Position numbers and translations under genes: made by a program. A stretch of DNA of 64,000 bases from Crambe crambe (lineage: Eukaryota; Porifera; Demospongiae; Poecilosclerida; Crambeidae). Positions 1,341-64,000 of the stretch are shown here, piece by piece; within the stretch, counting starts at the first letter, position 1; each line of letters starts with the position of its first letter. The notes beneath the pieces were generated by a model. That model was not told where the DNA came from. It saw only the letters and a list, made by a program, of their open reading frames with translations, and ran no database searches. Location: assembly GCA_963924555.1 (NCBI GenBank), contig OZ004584.1:4463001-4527000 (forward strand), read 5' to 3'.

Positions 1341-22293
<20,953 letters not shown>

Positions 22294-38100: not shown

Positions 38101-38727
38101 ACTTGCAAACATCAAAGAAGACCACCCGTTCTTATATTGCATGTTAATCTGTGCATCATTTTGAAGCAGTAGAGCAACTGTTTCAGTGTGTCCATTTTGA
38201 CTTGCAATCATCAGAGAAGACCTCCCATTATTATTTTGCATGTCAACTTGTGCACCATTTTGAAGAAGTAGAGCAACTGTTTCAGTGTGTCCATTTTGAC
38301 TTGCAATCATCAGAGAAGACCTCCCATTATTATTTTGCATGTCAACTTGTGCACCATTTTGAAGAAGTAGAGCAACTGTTTCAGTGTGTCCATTTTGACT
38401 TGCAATCATCAGAGAAGACCATCCATTGTGATCTCTTAGATTTATTAAGTGCTCTGGATTTTTGACAGCATTGAGTATCAGCTGTACTATTTCAGAGTGT
38501 CCTTGTCTACAGGCACACATGAGAGCATGATCACCATCGTCATTCTGTTTATAAATATCAATTCCCAGGACTTGAAGTAGTTCTTTAACATAGTCCACAT
38601 TTCCATGAAGACAAGCCACCATTAGTTGAGAACACTGCTTTCCATTGATCACCACTAAACTGTTAATGTAGGTACTTTTCTCTTTAACTAGTGTCAAGAG
38701 AGACTCATCTGACCAACTGGAATCCAT
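32182..38727 (-). CDS. Ankyrin-repeat/ZU5/UPA-like/death-domain protein, paralog B (11 ankyrin repeats)
   Basis: Twelve exons on the complement, in the same structure as paralog A: 37530-38727, 36943-37443, 36790-36887, 36556-36702, 35420-35591, 33509-33567, 33268-33377, 33130-33211, 32981-33077, 32652-32789, 32532-32570, 32182-32471. They total 2931 nt in frame, 976 aa. Exons 3, 4, 5, 7, 11 and 12 have exactly the same lengths as in paralog A. Exon 8 is 9 nt shorter (an in-frame deletion). The N-terminus MDSSWSDESLLTLVKEKS matches A. The ankyrin array has 11 repeats, including a nearly identical 66-residue dimer (ending QINMQYKN then QVNMQNNN) present twice. ZU5 and death domain are intact. 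Intron 33568-35419 (1.85 kb) holds an (AC)n tract near 33612 and no recognised gene; intron 35592-36555 holds a mobile repeat. Cytosolic death-domain scaffold by inference. Confidence 0.9.
35691..36396. mobile_element. TIR repeat with CAGGGGCTGATCCAG ends and internal poly-C
   Basis: Starts CAGGGGCTGATCCAGATAGG and ends CTGGATCAGCCCCTGA. A 25-base C run lies at 35727-35751. The interior shares long strings (TAGACAAGAACAGAATTAT, GTGTGGTTTGGTCAAAAGTG, CAGGGCCAGAGCTAGCT) with 44725-45500. A shorter palindromic copy of the ends alone sits at 36322-36396. Non-coding; lies in an intron of paralog B. Confidence 0.7.
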
Positions 38728-54360: not shown

Positions 54361-56150
54361 TTCCCAGACTTTTTTGATGACAATATTCATTAAGCAGGAA
54401 TCTGGAAATGCTAGAGTGGAAAAGGACACTCCAAAAGACTAAAATCTCTATACCATCAAAAGGGAGAGTTGTCATTCTCAAAAATACAAATCATAGAACA
54501 ATGTTTACATTATCCATCAAGTCTTGAACCAGTTAGACATGTTTCATTGGTAGAGTCATTATCACTGTCTGCTGGTTCTTTTTATTACATAGATGAGGTG
54601 TGTATCCTATACTTGCTCCGCACCTCTAGAGATGTGTCAATACCATGCTCAGGCTCTAGCAGCATGCAGAGTTCAATAACATGGAACAGTAACCTTTTTT
54701 GTTTGGTGTCCTCCTCCAACAGAACTGTGTGATACCCTTATGACCCATGTGTTCACCATGTGATTGGGTATAGTGCTTTGATCTTGACCACAGACAAAAT
54801 TATAGTTATTTAGACGTCCTCTCTCAATATGGCCAGGTGTATATAGTCCAGCACAACCAGCTCCAGGCTCACCTGTGAAAGGGTTTGGTTACGTATTTGG
54901 CAGGAATCAATGAATCTTATTAACACACGCTCAAAATGGTAACCGTCAAGTTTGACAACTGTTGTATTGACTGTCATTAACACTCAATGTCATTAACACT
55001 CAAAGCAAAGGCTGTATTCAAGCATTCTTCCACACAGCCTCGAGTGCCTTACAGCTCCAGTTGCACTTAAAAATTACAGAATCAGCGGGACTTGATGGAC
55101 ATTGTTTGGGAGGGACAACTCTCCCTTTAAAAAAAGGCTATCATCAAGTAACAGTTATTTATGACACAATTCTATAGTAGTCACATTACATTACTCGACC
55201 TCAAATGGCTACACTACAGGGCCAGTGGGTGTGATCATAAAATATTCAGGAATATGCAGTATTCATTTGTTATTGGAATGCACACAATGATATTTATTCT
55301 AATCATGATTAGCTAATTGCTTTTATACCAGTAGAAAAAATGGGGAACACTAGCACCCATAAACCTAAAGCATGTCTATGGCCCTGAATAGAAGCATATT
55401 GGTCTTGATAGTGGAGCCACATCCATCTAGTAACTCAAATCATTAGATGGCGGTTAGAGAATAGTGAGGATGGAGGGGGGGGGGGGGGCTGTTGTGCTTG
55501 ATAATAATCGAATTCCTATACTTTGGGCAAGTTACCTTCATTGGGTACCGAGTCTTCAACTGCTTCTGACACGAGCTAGATTCTTCTTGGTAGTAACTGT
55601 AGTACCCTGATAATTGAAAGAAGCTAAAACTCTCTATGCAAGGAAAATAGAGTGGATCATGCAAGGTCATTTTTGATAGCATGGATAGCAAACATGGAAT
55701 ATGCCATCAGCCCCCCCCCCCCCCCCCCCCCCCCCCCTTTAGTCTTTGCTGACTGTAGTGTTATCTACCTTGAGAAGTTTTCTTCAACATGACACAATAG
55801 TGGCCTGCATAATAAAATTAATGAGGTTAAACTATATTATTTCGTGGTCAAGATACCACGAAACAGAGATCACATGGGTAGACTCATGATACCAAATGAA
55901 GTCATCTGCTGAGAAAATTTACAGAATTATGTTGATCAATTCATAAAATCCTCATTAACTACATATGCTAGGCATGAAAGATGTACAGTTTAAATATTGA
56001 ACTCATTCTAGAATAGTTCAGCGAACATAACAGCTACAACACTAAGATGTCGATTTCATAGTAATGCAGTCACTGCAATAATGAAGAAGGAAAAAAAATA
56101 ACAACAACAAACCTTAGTGTAATAGCTAGTCAGCTAAATTAATGTATAAT

Positions 56151-56870: not shown

Positions 56871-57841
56871 AATACCCACCTTATTATGTCTGGCTACAGG
56901 TGTAACAATACTTTGATCTTAATAATAATTAGGGCTAGGGCTGTAATGTACACTGCCACAGAGTGTCAGCAAGCAACTAATGCCTCTAACTATATTAGCT
57001 AGAACCCAGTTTCCAATAGCTGCTGCTGCTGCATGGTTATGTCTTGATGGACTGTCTGGCAACTGCTAGATTAGTCAGAGCTCTTCTCCCTCCTGTTAAC
57101 AGGCACACCAATTTTTGGTTTGGGGTTGGCTTGAAAGGTTTATAAACATTGTGTATACCTTCACTATAAGTGAGCAGTTTTCACACATAGCTACATATAA
57201 TTGATTTGAGAAATGGCTTAATTAAAAATAATGAACAAATTTTTAATGGACAATGTACCTGCATTAGCTGGTGATTGACAAGACAGCAACTAGACATATC
57301 TCATCGTGCTGGAACCTATCACAGTAGGTCTGTCTCAATTCAGCTGCAGTCTTGCCATCTAACCTAATGTGTCCATAACTCTCCACATAATGAGGGGAGG
57401 GTGAGAGGTATACTGTAGCTACAATGTAAAGTAAGTCATTGAAATGCAGAGCACTGTGGGGATCAAGGGTGAGCCTGAGTCATGGAGGAGATGCATCATA
57501 CACTGCATGTCCATGGTTGCCGAAAGACAGCTCTTATCTGCATGATGAAATGATCAATGGGTGTTACCTATGAATTCATTTAACTAGAGTAGCTGTCGTC
57601 ATGGATACTGATGATGCACTTGCCAATGTGGTTCATTAAGGTTCCTATGATGGATACTGTAGTGATACATGCACATAATTATAATCTTATTCATGTATCA
57701 ATAATGACAATAATTACTTACTCACCACATCCAATGCTCCCTGATGATATCAATACCCACCTTAAGGTTGTGAGTTCACCAGGTGTAGCAATACTTTGAT
57801 CTTAGCCATACGTATAGGCAGGATATGCACTTTGCAGTGTA

Positions 57842-58700: not shown

Positions 58701-61700
58701 CTAGTTAGTTACATTATATAGTCTTTCAATATCTAATGCTACATCTTCACGATTGACCAAAGGGTCCCTCAGAGCCTTGCAGAGATTAATCCAAGATGGT
58801 GCTTCATCTCCTTTCATCTTCAACCATTCATTAACCACCTCCTTCAAACACTGCTTCACATCTTTAGGATGATTAGTCCTTATTGCTTCAATGTCTGGAT
58901 GTGGCAACCCAAGAGCTTCTCCAAGTTCATCCCATTCCTTTGTTATATTCTGTAGTGCTAGTTTGACTTCACGATGGCCTTTTAATATGAAATTATACAG
59001 TACAGGAAGATGGCTATAGACTATACAGAACTCACCAAGTTCTGCCCTTTCACTATCAACACTGGCAAGTTTAGTATGGGTACCATCAGCTGAACCTGCA
59101 TGGACAAACAAACAACAAACAACAACAATAAATAAACACATGTAGTTAGTGGAATTACAATTAACTGACCTTTGGTGTACCAATATCTTCCTTGTGGTGG
59201 AATAGGACTAGTTTTACGATTTTTTTTGCACGTCATTTTTTTAGCCTTGTTTACTTGATGGAGTTCATTGCACAATTCACATCTGAGGCACATTATTGGT
59301 TTGACTCTCTCTTCATTGTAATGAAGATCCCTGAAAGATTTAATGATCAATTTCTCTAGAATCTCACGAATGGTGCTACAAACTTCTTCAATCGAAACTT
59401 CACGATCTTCAGCTGGTGAGAAAGGAAAGAAATTTATCTCTAAATGAGAAGGATTAACTTTAATAGACATTTCATCTCTTTCTGCTTCACAAGATATGAC
59501 ATCAAAAGATACTTGATCTTTGAATATCCTCTCTTCATTGAGTTGAAAATCAGTTTGATACTCCGCTTTGAGATCTGATTCTGGGGTCATAATGTGGGTT
59601 ACCAGGACACCAAACACACCTTTAGGACAATGTCGACGTTCAAAAGTGATAGCAAGAGGTGAAATATCTGTGTGAAAAGTTAATTCAGACTCTGAAACGT
59701 GATTAAGAACACAAGGCATAAAGTACTTCTTTTCCCGACCTTCTGGTGTGGGGAATGCAGTAATAATGCGGAGGTGAACCAAAAGCTGTAGGAACTCGCT
59801 CGAGGTAATTTTATCATCAGTTTTAACAACGCTTTCGAAGGAAGATGCCAAAAAAATGCCCCTCTTCTTGAAATCATCTCTTTCTGTGTCCCTGAGGAAT
59901 TTAGAAGAGAAGGTTTCGATGATGAGATCAGTAACTTTATTGAAGAGAACTTGAGGCTCTTTAACGATAATGTGTCTCAAACCTTTGACATTGAAGTATC
60001 GGATGACACCAATTCTGAGGTGAAGGAAGTGTAGGAGGTCAATTACTTGCTTTCCTGTGATACCATACACTGCTGCCATGGCCTTACATTCCTCGAGAGT
60101 CAATATACATTCTTTTCTAAATTGTAAGTCGAGGCAGAATAACAGATACTTGAGTGGGTATCGGATGGTGAACTCATCACGACCTTTGACTAAATTTTCA
60201 ACCCGTGTTCGAACTTTCTTGAAATCGTTGTCACTATCAGACATATTATTGACAGTAAGCATGACCTTACCTTCATCTGCATCATAATACTCAACTAGGT
60301 TGCGAAATCCATTATTGATGAGCAATGAATCCAAGTATCGATTCATCTTAGCAATTTCAGCATCCAGATCCTCATCTTTAATTCTGGCTTGAAGCTCATC
60401 AATATGAGTGCCAATGATGAATACGAGAGGCTTGTGTGTCTTCACGCGACTTTTACTTGATGTATCCATAGCATACACAGTAGACAAACACTGGAGAAGG
60501 GCTTCTTCTGTAGTGATGGAAGAGGTGTAGTGGTTAGTAGACTCGCTAGCACTAACCCTGTATTCGATGCTGAATTTTTCCTGAAATCCAAGAGTAATAT
60601 TGAAAATAAAGAAGATAATAGATGGGCCAAAAACAAGAAGACCTAAAATTTCTTGGAATTCCACTTGGCCTCCGGTGTCCCTGATATAAAGGGAAAAGGT
60701 TTTCTTGAGGTACTTCTTGAATTTCTTGAACCCATACTTCTTAATTACTGAACGGGTATTCAATGTGATAACTTTTGATTTGATGGTGGCTATCTCTTCA
60801 ATAGAGAGAGCTTTTTGTGCTGCCTGAACTGTCATGTTGGGTGTAACAGTTTCTTCAGGGCGTGTCTCCTGTTCAATAAATGATGATTCTGAATCAATAA
60901 CCTCAGAACCAATAAATGACTCGGTACCTTCTGCTTCATTCCTAACGTCCATTTGGCCCACAAACGATTCGTTACATTCAACTTCTTCCCAAACATCAGA
61001 CTCAAGTATGTTAACTGCCTGGAGAGGGCATGATTTTATGTCAACCACGATGATGGTACCACACACACCAGTGGAAGGGGAGAATTGCTTTCTCTGTCTA
61101 CCTAGTAGACGATCTATGAATGAACTCTTGCCTGAGCCTGGAGGACCAACAAAGGTGGAGTGAGCCATTTTCCTTTCGATCTCTTTATCATTAGCAGCAG
61201 CTTTCTCAACTTTTTCAATAAACTCGTCTGTGACTGCTTCTTCATCAGTATCTGTTTCTTTGACGGCATCACTAGGATCTGTTGCTTCTTTATCAGCATC
61301 AAATTTTGCTACTTCTTCAGCATCTTTAATGTTATCAGGATCTTCATCAATATTTGTCCCTTCTGTTTGATCTGAAGGATAAACATAGGTGTTAGGGAAT
61401 TGGACAGAAATATTAAGGCCACCCTGCCATGCACATTGTCACATTAAGCAGGTTTCACTGTATATATGATAATAATCTGTCCAATTCCCTAACACCTATG
61501 TTTAATTTATCTATCTGTACTTACCACCATCATCTGACCAGAGAAAATGAGTTTTGAGTTGATTGATTTCTACTGCTTCTAGTAGTTCCTTAATGGAATT
61601 CATAAGTTCTTTAGCATTAGTCACAAGCATATCCATTGCTTCAGACAAATCATCAATACTTCCTATGTACATTATAATAGAATGCATTTAGCTGTATCTG

Positions 61701-64000
61701 TGTAAGGAGACCCACAACATCCACACTTCTGAATCTGCACTACAATCCACCACATTGGATATTGAGATACCATACGTACATGCCAAATAATGAATGCATG
61801 CATGCATGACCATGTTACATGAGTTTGTTATAGCTGTGGCATAGCTACTTACCAGCATAGTGTTTTAGTCTGACCAGAGCACCTATTTTCAGCTGTTGAG
61901 AAATGCTGAGAATCTTGGGTATGATAAGATCCTTACTTTCATTTGTATCCTACAAAGGAAAACATTATACGTAATTTTAATCAGAATGGATTTGATAAGT
62001 ATATAGCTACCATTGTTCTCTTGGTAGATTTGATTATTTCATAAGTTTGTTGCTGAATCAGTTGCACTTCGTTTATAAGTGAGTGAATGGAACTTGGATC
62101 ACTAAAAAGATCATGTGCATCAATTTTAACAGAGATAGCCATCTTTAAAGACATACTGAACGAGTGTTTCAATATTGTTCATGATATCAATCATCTTCTT
62201 GACACTGATTAGTACAGGAGTATCCTTTATTCCAATTAACTGGTTCTCCAATGAAGCTTTGGCCACCTAAAACAGCCACACTATTAACTATTTCATTATA
62301 CATAGCTAACTGTTTTAATTACCTTCAGGTGTCGAGTATCCACTTCTAGATATGCATATTTGGTTGCTTCTGTTGGTGAATCTGCAATATCAAACAATTA
62401 TTACTGAATTCAAAGTAGTGTATACAAGTTGATGTGTCAGCTCTTGTCAGGCAACATGATGAAGTCCATCCTTAATATTCTTCCAACTGACCTGGAGTAC
62501 ATCTTGCTATTGCCTGATTTATTACTCTATTAATTTAATATGTACTGTAAAGCAGTCAATCCTTGACCAAATTTGAAAGTTTCAAACACCAGCAGTTCAT
62601 TCAATATGGAACTGCTACCTGACAGCTATAACTTGACTAGTGACATCATCATCTTAAAAAGTGTTATCGCTAATAATAATACATACTTGGAAGACCTGGT
62701 ATCACAAATGTGCACTCTTCATCCAGTCCTTTTACACTCAGCGTTAGAGGCTCTGGTCTGGCACAAACACAGGTGATGGTAATCCTTGGAGGGTAGTCTG
62801 GTATCTCTGAATCTAATACACCCTCTGTCTCTGGAAGGTCAATCTCTGCCTTTGAAATCTATGGACATGCATACATGATTTTTCATTATTGTATAGCTAC
62901 AGTAGATTGAGTTTGTGATAAATGTGATGATCAGCTTTGTGGCAACTATAGGATCAAAATCTCAGGCTATAATGACTACCATTGTGGTTCCAGAATGGCA
63001 TAGAAGTTAGTTATGACCCTAGTCCTAGCCTTAGCCCTACCCTAGCCTTAGCCCTAGCCCTAGCCTTAGCCCTAGCCCTTAACTACATAGCTTTTGTAGC
63101 TACTAAAACAACACATTGATGCTCACATTTGATTTATCCATTAAACATTTTATCCCTTCTCCTGGAACAAGAGTAATTGTGTCAGATACGATTGTCAGTT
63201 GGTTGTATACAATGCGGCCTTCAACTTTTCGTGTCATTCCAGAGTAATTTTCAGCAATATAGTCATCACAATACTGAATTAAAAATGAGAATAAAACATT
63301 TAATTTAAGAGATTATGCATGTATTGGTGGTATATTTTATACCTGTGTATAATATTCGTGCTGAGGGCACATACAAAACACAGCTGTGATATTAGCTGAA
63401 CTCAATGCTCTGTAGAGTCTTGCTGAATATAATAATGGACCTTTAGCTAAATATAAAATTCATTGAAGCAAAATCACAATAGAAGATAATTGTTAAATAC
63501 CTGAAAATAATCCTTTTATCATTCTTATACCTCTCCTCCACCAACTGGAGTGAGTGAGCTTTGTTTGCTTTTTGTAGGAATAAGTTTGAAGTAATAAGGA
63601 AACTATTTCATTATGTCCATTTTGCTCTGCTATCTCCAAAGAAGATTTCCCACTGTTATTTTTCATATGACTATCAGCACCATTTTGAATCAGTAGAGCA
63701 ACTGTTTCAGTGTGTCCATTTCGACTTGCAAATATCAGAGAAGACCAGCCATTGTTATCTTGCATGTCAATTTGTGCACCATTTTGAAGCAGTAGAGCAA
63801 CTGTTTCAGTGTGTCCATTTTTACTTGCAGACATCAGAGAAGATGACCCATCGTTACTTTGCATGTCAATTTGTGCACCATTTTGAAGCAGTAGAGCAAC
63901 AGTTTCAGTGTGTCCATTTTTACTTGCAGACATCAGAGAAGATGACCCATTGTTACTTTGTATGTCGACTTGTGCACCATTTTGAAGCAGTAGAGCAACT
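58701..64000 (-). CDS. Ankyrin/UPA-like/ROCO-like GTPase-COR/death-domain fusion protein, 5' end beyond window
   Basis: Exons on the complement: 63501-64000 (open at the edge), 63343-63440, 63127-63273, 62687-62858, 62323-62381, 62157-62266, 62011-62101, 61853-61949, 61525-61662, 59170-61371, 59036-59095, 58701-58978. Every exon is open and every junction keeps phase. The first ten follow the ankyrin-ZU5-death family. Ankyrin repeats run to YSYKKQTK and continue directly into LTHSSWWRRGIRMIKG, so ZU5 and its preceding intron are deleted in frame. After the family's DDG exon, the usual small exon and death exon are replaced by a 2202-nt exon: acidic lead-in, P-loop GPPGSGKSS, DTGGQ (G3), GTHID (G4-like), then a COR-like region (DLLHFLHLRIGVIRYF, IIVKEPQVLF) and a Cys-rich tail. 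Two last exons give a different death domain (LALQNITKEWDELGEALGL ... PSWINLCKAL). The COR-like part suggests GTP-dependent dimerisation; function in a death-fold signalling complex is inferred. Confidence 0.85.
63017..63082. repeat. Telomere-like hexamer array (CCCTAG/CCTTAG)
   Basis: About 11 degenerate hexamers mixing CCCTAG and CCTTAG, close to the animal telomere CCCTAA, inside an intron of the fusion gene. Ends CCCTTAAC. Confidence 0.8.

Follow-up and report, generated by a model that had tools for sequence, protein, structure and literature searches.

Structure of the gene

The window analysed here, a stretch of 64,000 nucleotides from the sponge Crambe crambe (contig 6, C6, positions 4463001-4527000), carries at its end a minus-strand gene in which ankyrin repeats are followed by UPA-like and helical exons, a Roc-COR GTPase module and a death domain. 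The genome searched comprised 143 Mb in 119 contigs, and sequence past window position 64000 was included. The DNA-based model has twelve exons in a single open frame that begins with an ATG at 64944 (beyond the window edge, context GCCATGG) and ends with a stop codon at 58701; it predicts a product of 1633 amino acids, or 1652 when the 57-nt last intron is retained. All eleven introns are GT-AG, which bears out the continuous frame over twelve exons claimed in a preliminary description of this DNA. That description also made the gene the last member of the local family; the model of the gene stands, but the family runs on past 64000 and the gene itself starts outside the window. Its N-terminus, MDSSWSDES, is common to paralogs at 38727 and 29571, to a paralog at about 4763.4 kb of C6 and to a second copy of the gene (copy 2, described below). 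The home-made spliced aligner employed recovered the exons of the gene in a self-check and, on copy 2, exons 1-10 and the exon that follows. At the DNA level this is an intact, twice-recombined chimera, and very likely one gene.

Pfam recognised ankyrin repeats in 11 stretches of the predicted protein (E 1.7e-72) and a death domain in exon 12 (E 4.4e-7), with a weak Vinculin match, below cut-off, in the helical region. The surrounding cluster holds ankyrin-ZU5-UPA-like-death genes at 25, 32, 50, 76, 90 and 99 kb, which share exons 2-9 with the gene in whole or in part, and its N-terminus where one was found. They differ from the gene in having ZU5, and a search for a Roc-COR exon was negative in all of them, those at 76 and 99 kb included. 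Pfam recognised no ZU5 in the gene, and a tblastn search that matched ZU5 at seven paralog loci was negative in both the gene and copy 2; it likewise gave no match at three places with helical exons (C6 at about 4766.3-4767.3 kb, which is dup 12.3-13.3 kb, and the loci L017 and L018). At the end of ZU5 all seven loci read FS and three of them (25, 76 and 99 kb) HFS; HFSWW or HFSCW is read in three paralogs. HFS is the self-cleavage motif of PIDD and FIIND, and self-cleaving ZU5/FIIND domains occur in PIDD and NLRP1. As the gene reads HSS where three paralogs read HFS, it may have lost self-cleavage. Helical exons of the ankyrin family also lie in L018 (contig 8, 7081001-7091000) at 2320-2679 and 5333-6156; neither a death exon like that of the gene nor a Roc-COR exon was found there, and a death-like open reading frame (ORF) was seen by eye upstream on the same strand.

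The Roc-COR exon

Exon 10 is predicted to encode a full Roc, COR-A and COR-B module, in which the COR region directly follows Roc. The match to the predicted fold covers the Roc part as well as COR and strengthens the earlier identification of a ROCO-like GTPase with a COR-like region. The nucleotide-binding motifs G1, G3 and G4 stand in largely invariant columns of an alignment of 66 sequences (the query and 65 of the 120 protein matches listed, out of 488 in all). In the comparison with Roco GTPases the P-loop reads GPPGSGKSS, and GTHID is what we take to be the Roco-type THxD motif. With G1, G3, G4 and COR all present, the exon is assigned to the Roco GTPases as a predicted GTPase; LRRK2, the Parkinson's protein, is of the Roc-COR family. 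NCBIfam gave weak GTPase matches only, far under cut-off, and phmmer found nothing significant for exon 10 among PDB sequences (best E 0.42). None of the 120 protein matches listed, out of 488, has a precomputed ankyrin domain, which says little in a search of candidates up to 1.75 times the query length with genes called exon by exon. One database protein (P0037, ENA) has a B-box zinc finger ahead of Roc-COR in one ORF.

Roc-COR genes elsewhere in the genome

The genome-wide protein search gave 71 rows, which after merging of 10 second pieces represent 61 loci, the gene and copy 2 among them; since 61 of 465 candidates were scored, there are at least 61 Roc-COR loci. None of the 71 rows has an internal stop. 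Copy 2 aside, three genes on contig 17 come closest among the loci scored, with 82-84% identity. Another locus on this contig (C17:1600783) is 78% identical over residues 204-732 and 64% over a second piece, and a Macro-domain ORF (L034 739-1227; contig 17, about 1603.5-1604.0 kb) lies a few hundred bases upstream of it on the same strand. The remaining loci are 44-57% identical: C3 holds 22 of them (7.49-7.83 Mb), C12 three and the 1.2-Mb region of C5 another three, and the other 27 are on C1, C5, C14, C15, C19 and C21.

The three contig-17 genes lie on one strand between 1296379 and 1333658 (G000; L029, L028, L019, L020), and in place of the ankyrin-UPA-helical part they carry ubiquitin-like repeats, which number 15 (perhaps cut by the sequence edge), 18 and 21. 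After the repeats come Roc-COR, an exon related to exon 11 and a death domain of the same type as that of copy 2. In one of them repeats and Roc-COR form a single ORF of 2093 amino acids; another can be spliced to 2534 amino acids, counted from where its first ORF opens without a defined start, and in it a further death domain (Pfam 7.3e-9) separates the array from Roc-COR. In a tree of 28 sequences (LG+G4) the gene groups with copy 2 and the database protein P0003, which by identity is not among the loci of the genome search (support 98), and this group stands with the contig-17 genes and P0004 apart from the rest (support 100). Synonymous divergence (dS) between the gene and contig 17 is 0.37-0.40, so their separation is not recent.

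An ankyrin array beside Roc-COR is not unique to this gene. In the clusters on C3, C12 and C5 (1.2 Mb), all three loci examined have ankyrin-ZU5 just upstream of Roc-COR on the same strand, a linkage of order, strand and spacing; Pfam detected the ankyrin array at C3 and C5, inspection by eye found it at C12, and ZU5 scored above cut-off at all three. Unlike the gene, these loci keep ZU5, and their Roc-COR is only 54-56% identical to its own (52-57% over their clusters). At C3, the one examined downstream, a different, weakly scored death-like stretch follows Roc-COR. The gene and copy 2 apart, six Roc-COR loci have a recognised upstream array, three of them ankyrin-ZU5 and three ubiquitin; at C14:5936945 and C5:6166233 nothing was recognised by eye in 2 kb each.

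The junction at intron 9

Exon 9 ends in phase 1 and its donor aligns with the donors of the paralogs, and nucleotide homology to them stops at about 61510, 15 nt beyond that donor. Exon 10 is phase 1-1, its acceptor phase being that of the spliced contig-17 gene, and the proposal that the swap took place at a phase-1 intron is supported. The 39-nt exon said to occupy this position in the paralogs is present as a phase-1 candidate in the 25-kb paralog (25244-25206), but in spliced alignments the candidate exon measures 57 nt in the 32- and 90-kb paralogs and 75 nt in those at 76 and 99 kb. Intron 9 contains an imperfect inverted repeat (about 61504-61380) which, in a genome search that skips very common words, was found only in the gene and copy 2. 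Its reading as a multicopy MITE (miniature inverted-repeat transposable element) was rejected, the only matches being these two, each also self-inverted; the repeat may be a scar of the rearrangement. Just before the exon 10 acceptor, ATGTTTATCC gives a short match to one contig-17 copy, which is weak evidence because the other two contig-17 copies are without it.

The second join and the death domain

Copy 2 lies 247 kb from the gene (C6, about 4768.4-4774.4 kb) and is near-identical and intact: a 4-kb stretch has 98.3% nucleotide identity and another of 1.4 kb has 96.5%. Its exon 10 is 97.7% identical. Its start is the same, its ankyrin exon is some 66 codons shorter, it has two small in-frame deletions, and it has no internal stop. 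It ends in a death domain and stop codon of its own, and this death domain differs from that of the gene, its counterpart in the alignments being the death domain of the contig-17 Roc-COR gene. Exon 12 of the gene has 89% amino acid identity to the last exons of the 76- and 99-kb ankyrin paralogs, the death exon of the latter carrying a 19-nt deletion. Similarity to the 99-kb paralog runs from 59039 to 57528 at 88%, about 1.2 kb beyond the stop codon, and a second such block, of 2 kb and 94%, starts at 56933 and reaches the query edge at 55000. Since copy-2 similarity ends at 59034, the gene resembles copy 2 on the left side of a 6-nt overlap and the 99-kb paralog on the right side. The frame survives this join because both sides use phase-1 splice sites. 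By sequence comparison, then, the death domain is of the ankyrin-family type, and would have been gained in the second join, not carried in with the GTPase. It had been called unrelated, a view which the 89% identity and the exon alignments reject. What explains that view is that the paralogs inside the window, at 25, 32 and 50 kb, have death exons only 32-34% identical to that of the gene.

Origin of the gene and alternative explanations

The reading that we favour, and hold to be probable, is that of one gene for an intracellular ankyrin-UPA-like-helical-Roc-COR-death protein made by two recombinations. In the first, a Roc-COR exon of the contig-17 clade, with its follower exon and death domain, would have come to lie downstream of the helical exons in an ankyrin-ZU5-UPA-death gene from which ZU5 was lost, a state that copy 2 would retain. 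In the second, the death-domain end would have been swapped for that of a 99-kb-type paralog, giving the gene of the window. The product is more than a chance assembly, since the 733 codons used form an open frame in each copy and the ratio of nonsynonymous to synonymous change (dN/dS) in Roc-COR is 0.22-0.25 between either copy and contig 17.

Several observations weigh against this account or its parts. The two copies, being nearly identical, count as one observation of the junction, and the gene was read from DNA, so that splicing across 61525/61371 is presumed. The dN/dS of exons 2-9 is 0.78 against the 76-kb and 0.51 against the 25-kb paralog, which is weak constraint; that of the death exon, with few changes, is 0.89 (76 kb) and 1.64 (99 kb), and between the gene and copy 2 it is about 2 at a dS of 0.006. 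The UPA-like exons align with the stretches after ZU5 at the C3, C12 and C5 loci, and the UPA label is without profile or PDB support: Pfam and PDB sequence searches gave no match, and a profile of these exons gave one irrelevant PDB match (E 4.2, limit 5). Pfam COR-A scores 33.3 bits, slightly under the cut-off of 35.3, and Pfam Roc is weak (E 0.015). Nesting of the gene's group inside the contig-17 genes has a support of 63 only, no ubiquitin array was found in the 5 kb upstream of C17:1600783, and transfer from contig 17 to contig 6 is suggested by parsimony.

It is improbable that two adjacent genes lie here, one an ankyrin-UPA-helical gene cut short in intron 9, the other a Roc-COR-death gene with its own start at about 61168. 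The joining of the halves rests on a DNA model, the unspliced frame beyond the 61525 donor runs for four codons before a stop, and the database gene caller begins its ORF at Met 61168 (P0001). However, this methionine, which the preliminary description had named as a possible start, is unlikely to be a conserved one and was rejected as such because the family consensus RKLAHS has leucine there; the frame above it is open and encodes an acidic linker also found on contig 17. The two exons are only 153 nt apart, much of the gap being the inverted repeat, and splice sites and phases fit on both sides. Arrays stand just upstream of Roc-COR in the C3, C12 and C5 loci as well, and contig 17 has one Roc-COR in a single ORF with its array.

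A decaying chimera, arising as a neutral by-product of fast local duplication and on its way to a pseudogene, is an unlikely explanation too. The low constraint seen in exons 2-9 and in the death exon, the absence of ZU5 and the many divergent, partly broken copies in the cluster, the 99-kb relative among them, would agree with it, but neither copy has a stop, and the dN/dS of their Roc-COR is not above that among the contig-17 genes (0.24-0.28). Clear constraint on the GTPase and weak constraint elsewhere would fit fast-evolving receptors or early decay. Least probable is an ancestral Roc-COR lost from the paralogs without any insertion, which has in its favour the distant sister type ankyrin-ZU5-UPA-like-Roc-COR on C3, C12 and C5 with related UPA-like stretches, and against it both the far closer identity of the gene to contig 17 than to those loci and the end of paralog homology within intron 9.

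Table 1. Features of the gene and its surroundings (window coordinates)
Feature	Position	Strand	Description
exon 1	64944-63501 (in-window 63501..64000)	-	481 codons, mostly ankyrin repeats; ends phase 1; Pfam Ank
exon 2	63343..63446	-	UPA-like region begins; UPA assignment positional only
exon 3	63127..63273	-	UPA-like; spliced alignments
exon 4	62687..62858	-	UPA-like (DYPPRITI...GLDEECTF); aligns with stretch after ZU5 in C3, C12 and C5 loci
exon 5	62323..62381	-	spliced alignments
exon 6	62157..62266	-	helical region
exon 7	62011..62101	-	helical region
exon 8	61853..61949	-	helical region
exon 9	61525..61662	-	last exon in common with ankyrin paralogs before junction; ends phase 1
intron 9	61372..61524	-	fusion junction; paralog homology ends at about 61510
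exon 10	59170..61371	-	2202 nt, phase 1-1; acidic linker, predicted Roc GTPase, COR-A, COR-B
G1/P-loop GPPGSGKS	61124..61147	-	columns mostly invariant or near-invariant, 66 aligned sequences
G3 DTGGQ	60665..60679	-	invariant or near-invariant, 66 sequences
G4 GTHID	60398..60412	-	G, T, H, D invariant or near-invariant, 66 sequences
COR-A match	59705..60148	-	Pfam COR-A E 5.5e-8, 33.3 bits
exon 11	59036..59095	-	60 nt, phase 1-1; in copy 2 too; related to exon after Roc-COR on contig 17
second join	59034..59039	-	6-nt overlap: copy-2 similarity ends 59034, 76-kb/99-kb paralog similarity begins 59039
intron 11	58979..59035	-	57 nt; open and in frame when retained
exon 12	58701..58978	-	death domain of 76-kb/99-kb paralog type and stop
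ZU5 domains	27684-27232, 37411-36965, 53552-53121, and paralogs past 64000		tblastn

Relation to known systems

DAPK1 also has ankyrin repeats, and in it as in the gene these precede Roc-COR and a death domain comes last, all in one protein. It differs in its N-terminal calmodulin-regulated kinase, for which the gene has no counterpart, and the gene adds the UPA-like and helical exons. No kinase was found in the whole predicted protein (21 Pfam rows, E up to 1), and the start methionine is conserved in paralogs. Roc-COR with a C-terminal death domain is described for DAPK1 (PMC6337361). With this combination and the ankyrin-ZU5/Roc-COR arrangement at all three loci on C3, C12 and C5, the earlier statement that no described protein was known to join such parts in this way does not hold up: the combination has parallels. 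In the titles and abstract openings searched, neither an ankyrin-UPA-Roc-COR-death nor a polyubiquitin-Roc-COR protein was found, which is no proof of absence.

Varied partners of Roc-COR are reported for placozoan ROCO genes with CARD, death, TPR and LRR domains and for brown-algal LRR-ROCO genes, and in brown algae sensor repeats are exchanged by exon shuffling (PMC4104024, PMC11378527). These genes, unlike the one described here, have other sensor arrays, and the order ankyrin-UPA-helical-Roc-COR-death is not among the combinations in the passages of these papers that were consulted. Roco proteins are nucleotide-dependent dimer switches (PMC4104024, PMC6337361), and DAP-kinase-like GTPases are reported from conflict systems (PMC8195603).

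Because of the analogy with these switches and conflict GTPases, one may propose that the ankyrin array binds a ligand, that Roc-COR responds to binding with a change of nucleotide state or of dimerisation, and that this exposes or clusters the death domain, whose partners would then be recruited for defence or cell death. The gene is a real chimera, and its product would most likely act as an NLR-like, GTPase-switched death-fold receptor. The likeness to NLRs is a fair one of working only: neither NACHT nor NB-ARC, the hallmark of NLR/STAND proteins, is among the Pfam rows, and the predicted NTPase is Roc-COR.

Implications

Tentatively, the sponge may possess a large NLR-like repertoire with Roc-COR as the switch instead of NACHT, in which at least 61 loci trade sensor arrays and death domains as exon cassettes. 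It is conceivable that the arrays so traded comprise ankyrin-ZU5, polyubiquitin and ankyrin-UPA-helical, exchanged here at phase-1 introns; the gene of the window could then be a product seen soon after it was made, its sister copy having another death domain. The interest of the gene itself is moderate, and is higher as an entry to such a shuffling repertoire of Roc-COR receptors. If transcribed, the two copies would constitute a natural experiment, sharing the type of sensor and the GTPase and differing in the death domain, so that sensor, switch and output could be tested apart. Roc-COR proteins would then form an expanded receptor-like repertoire in an animal, with the exchange of exon cassettes at phase-1 introns as a route to its diversification.

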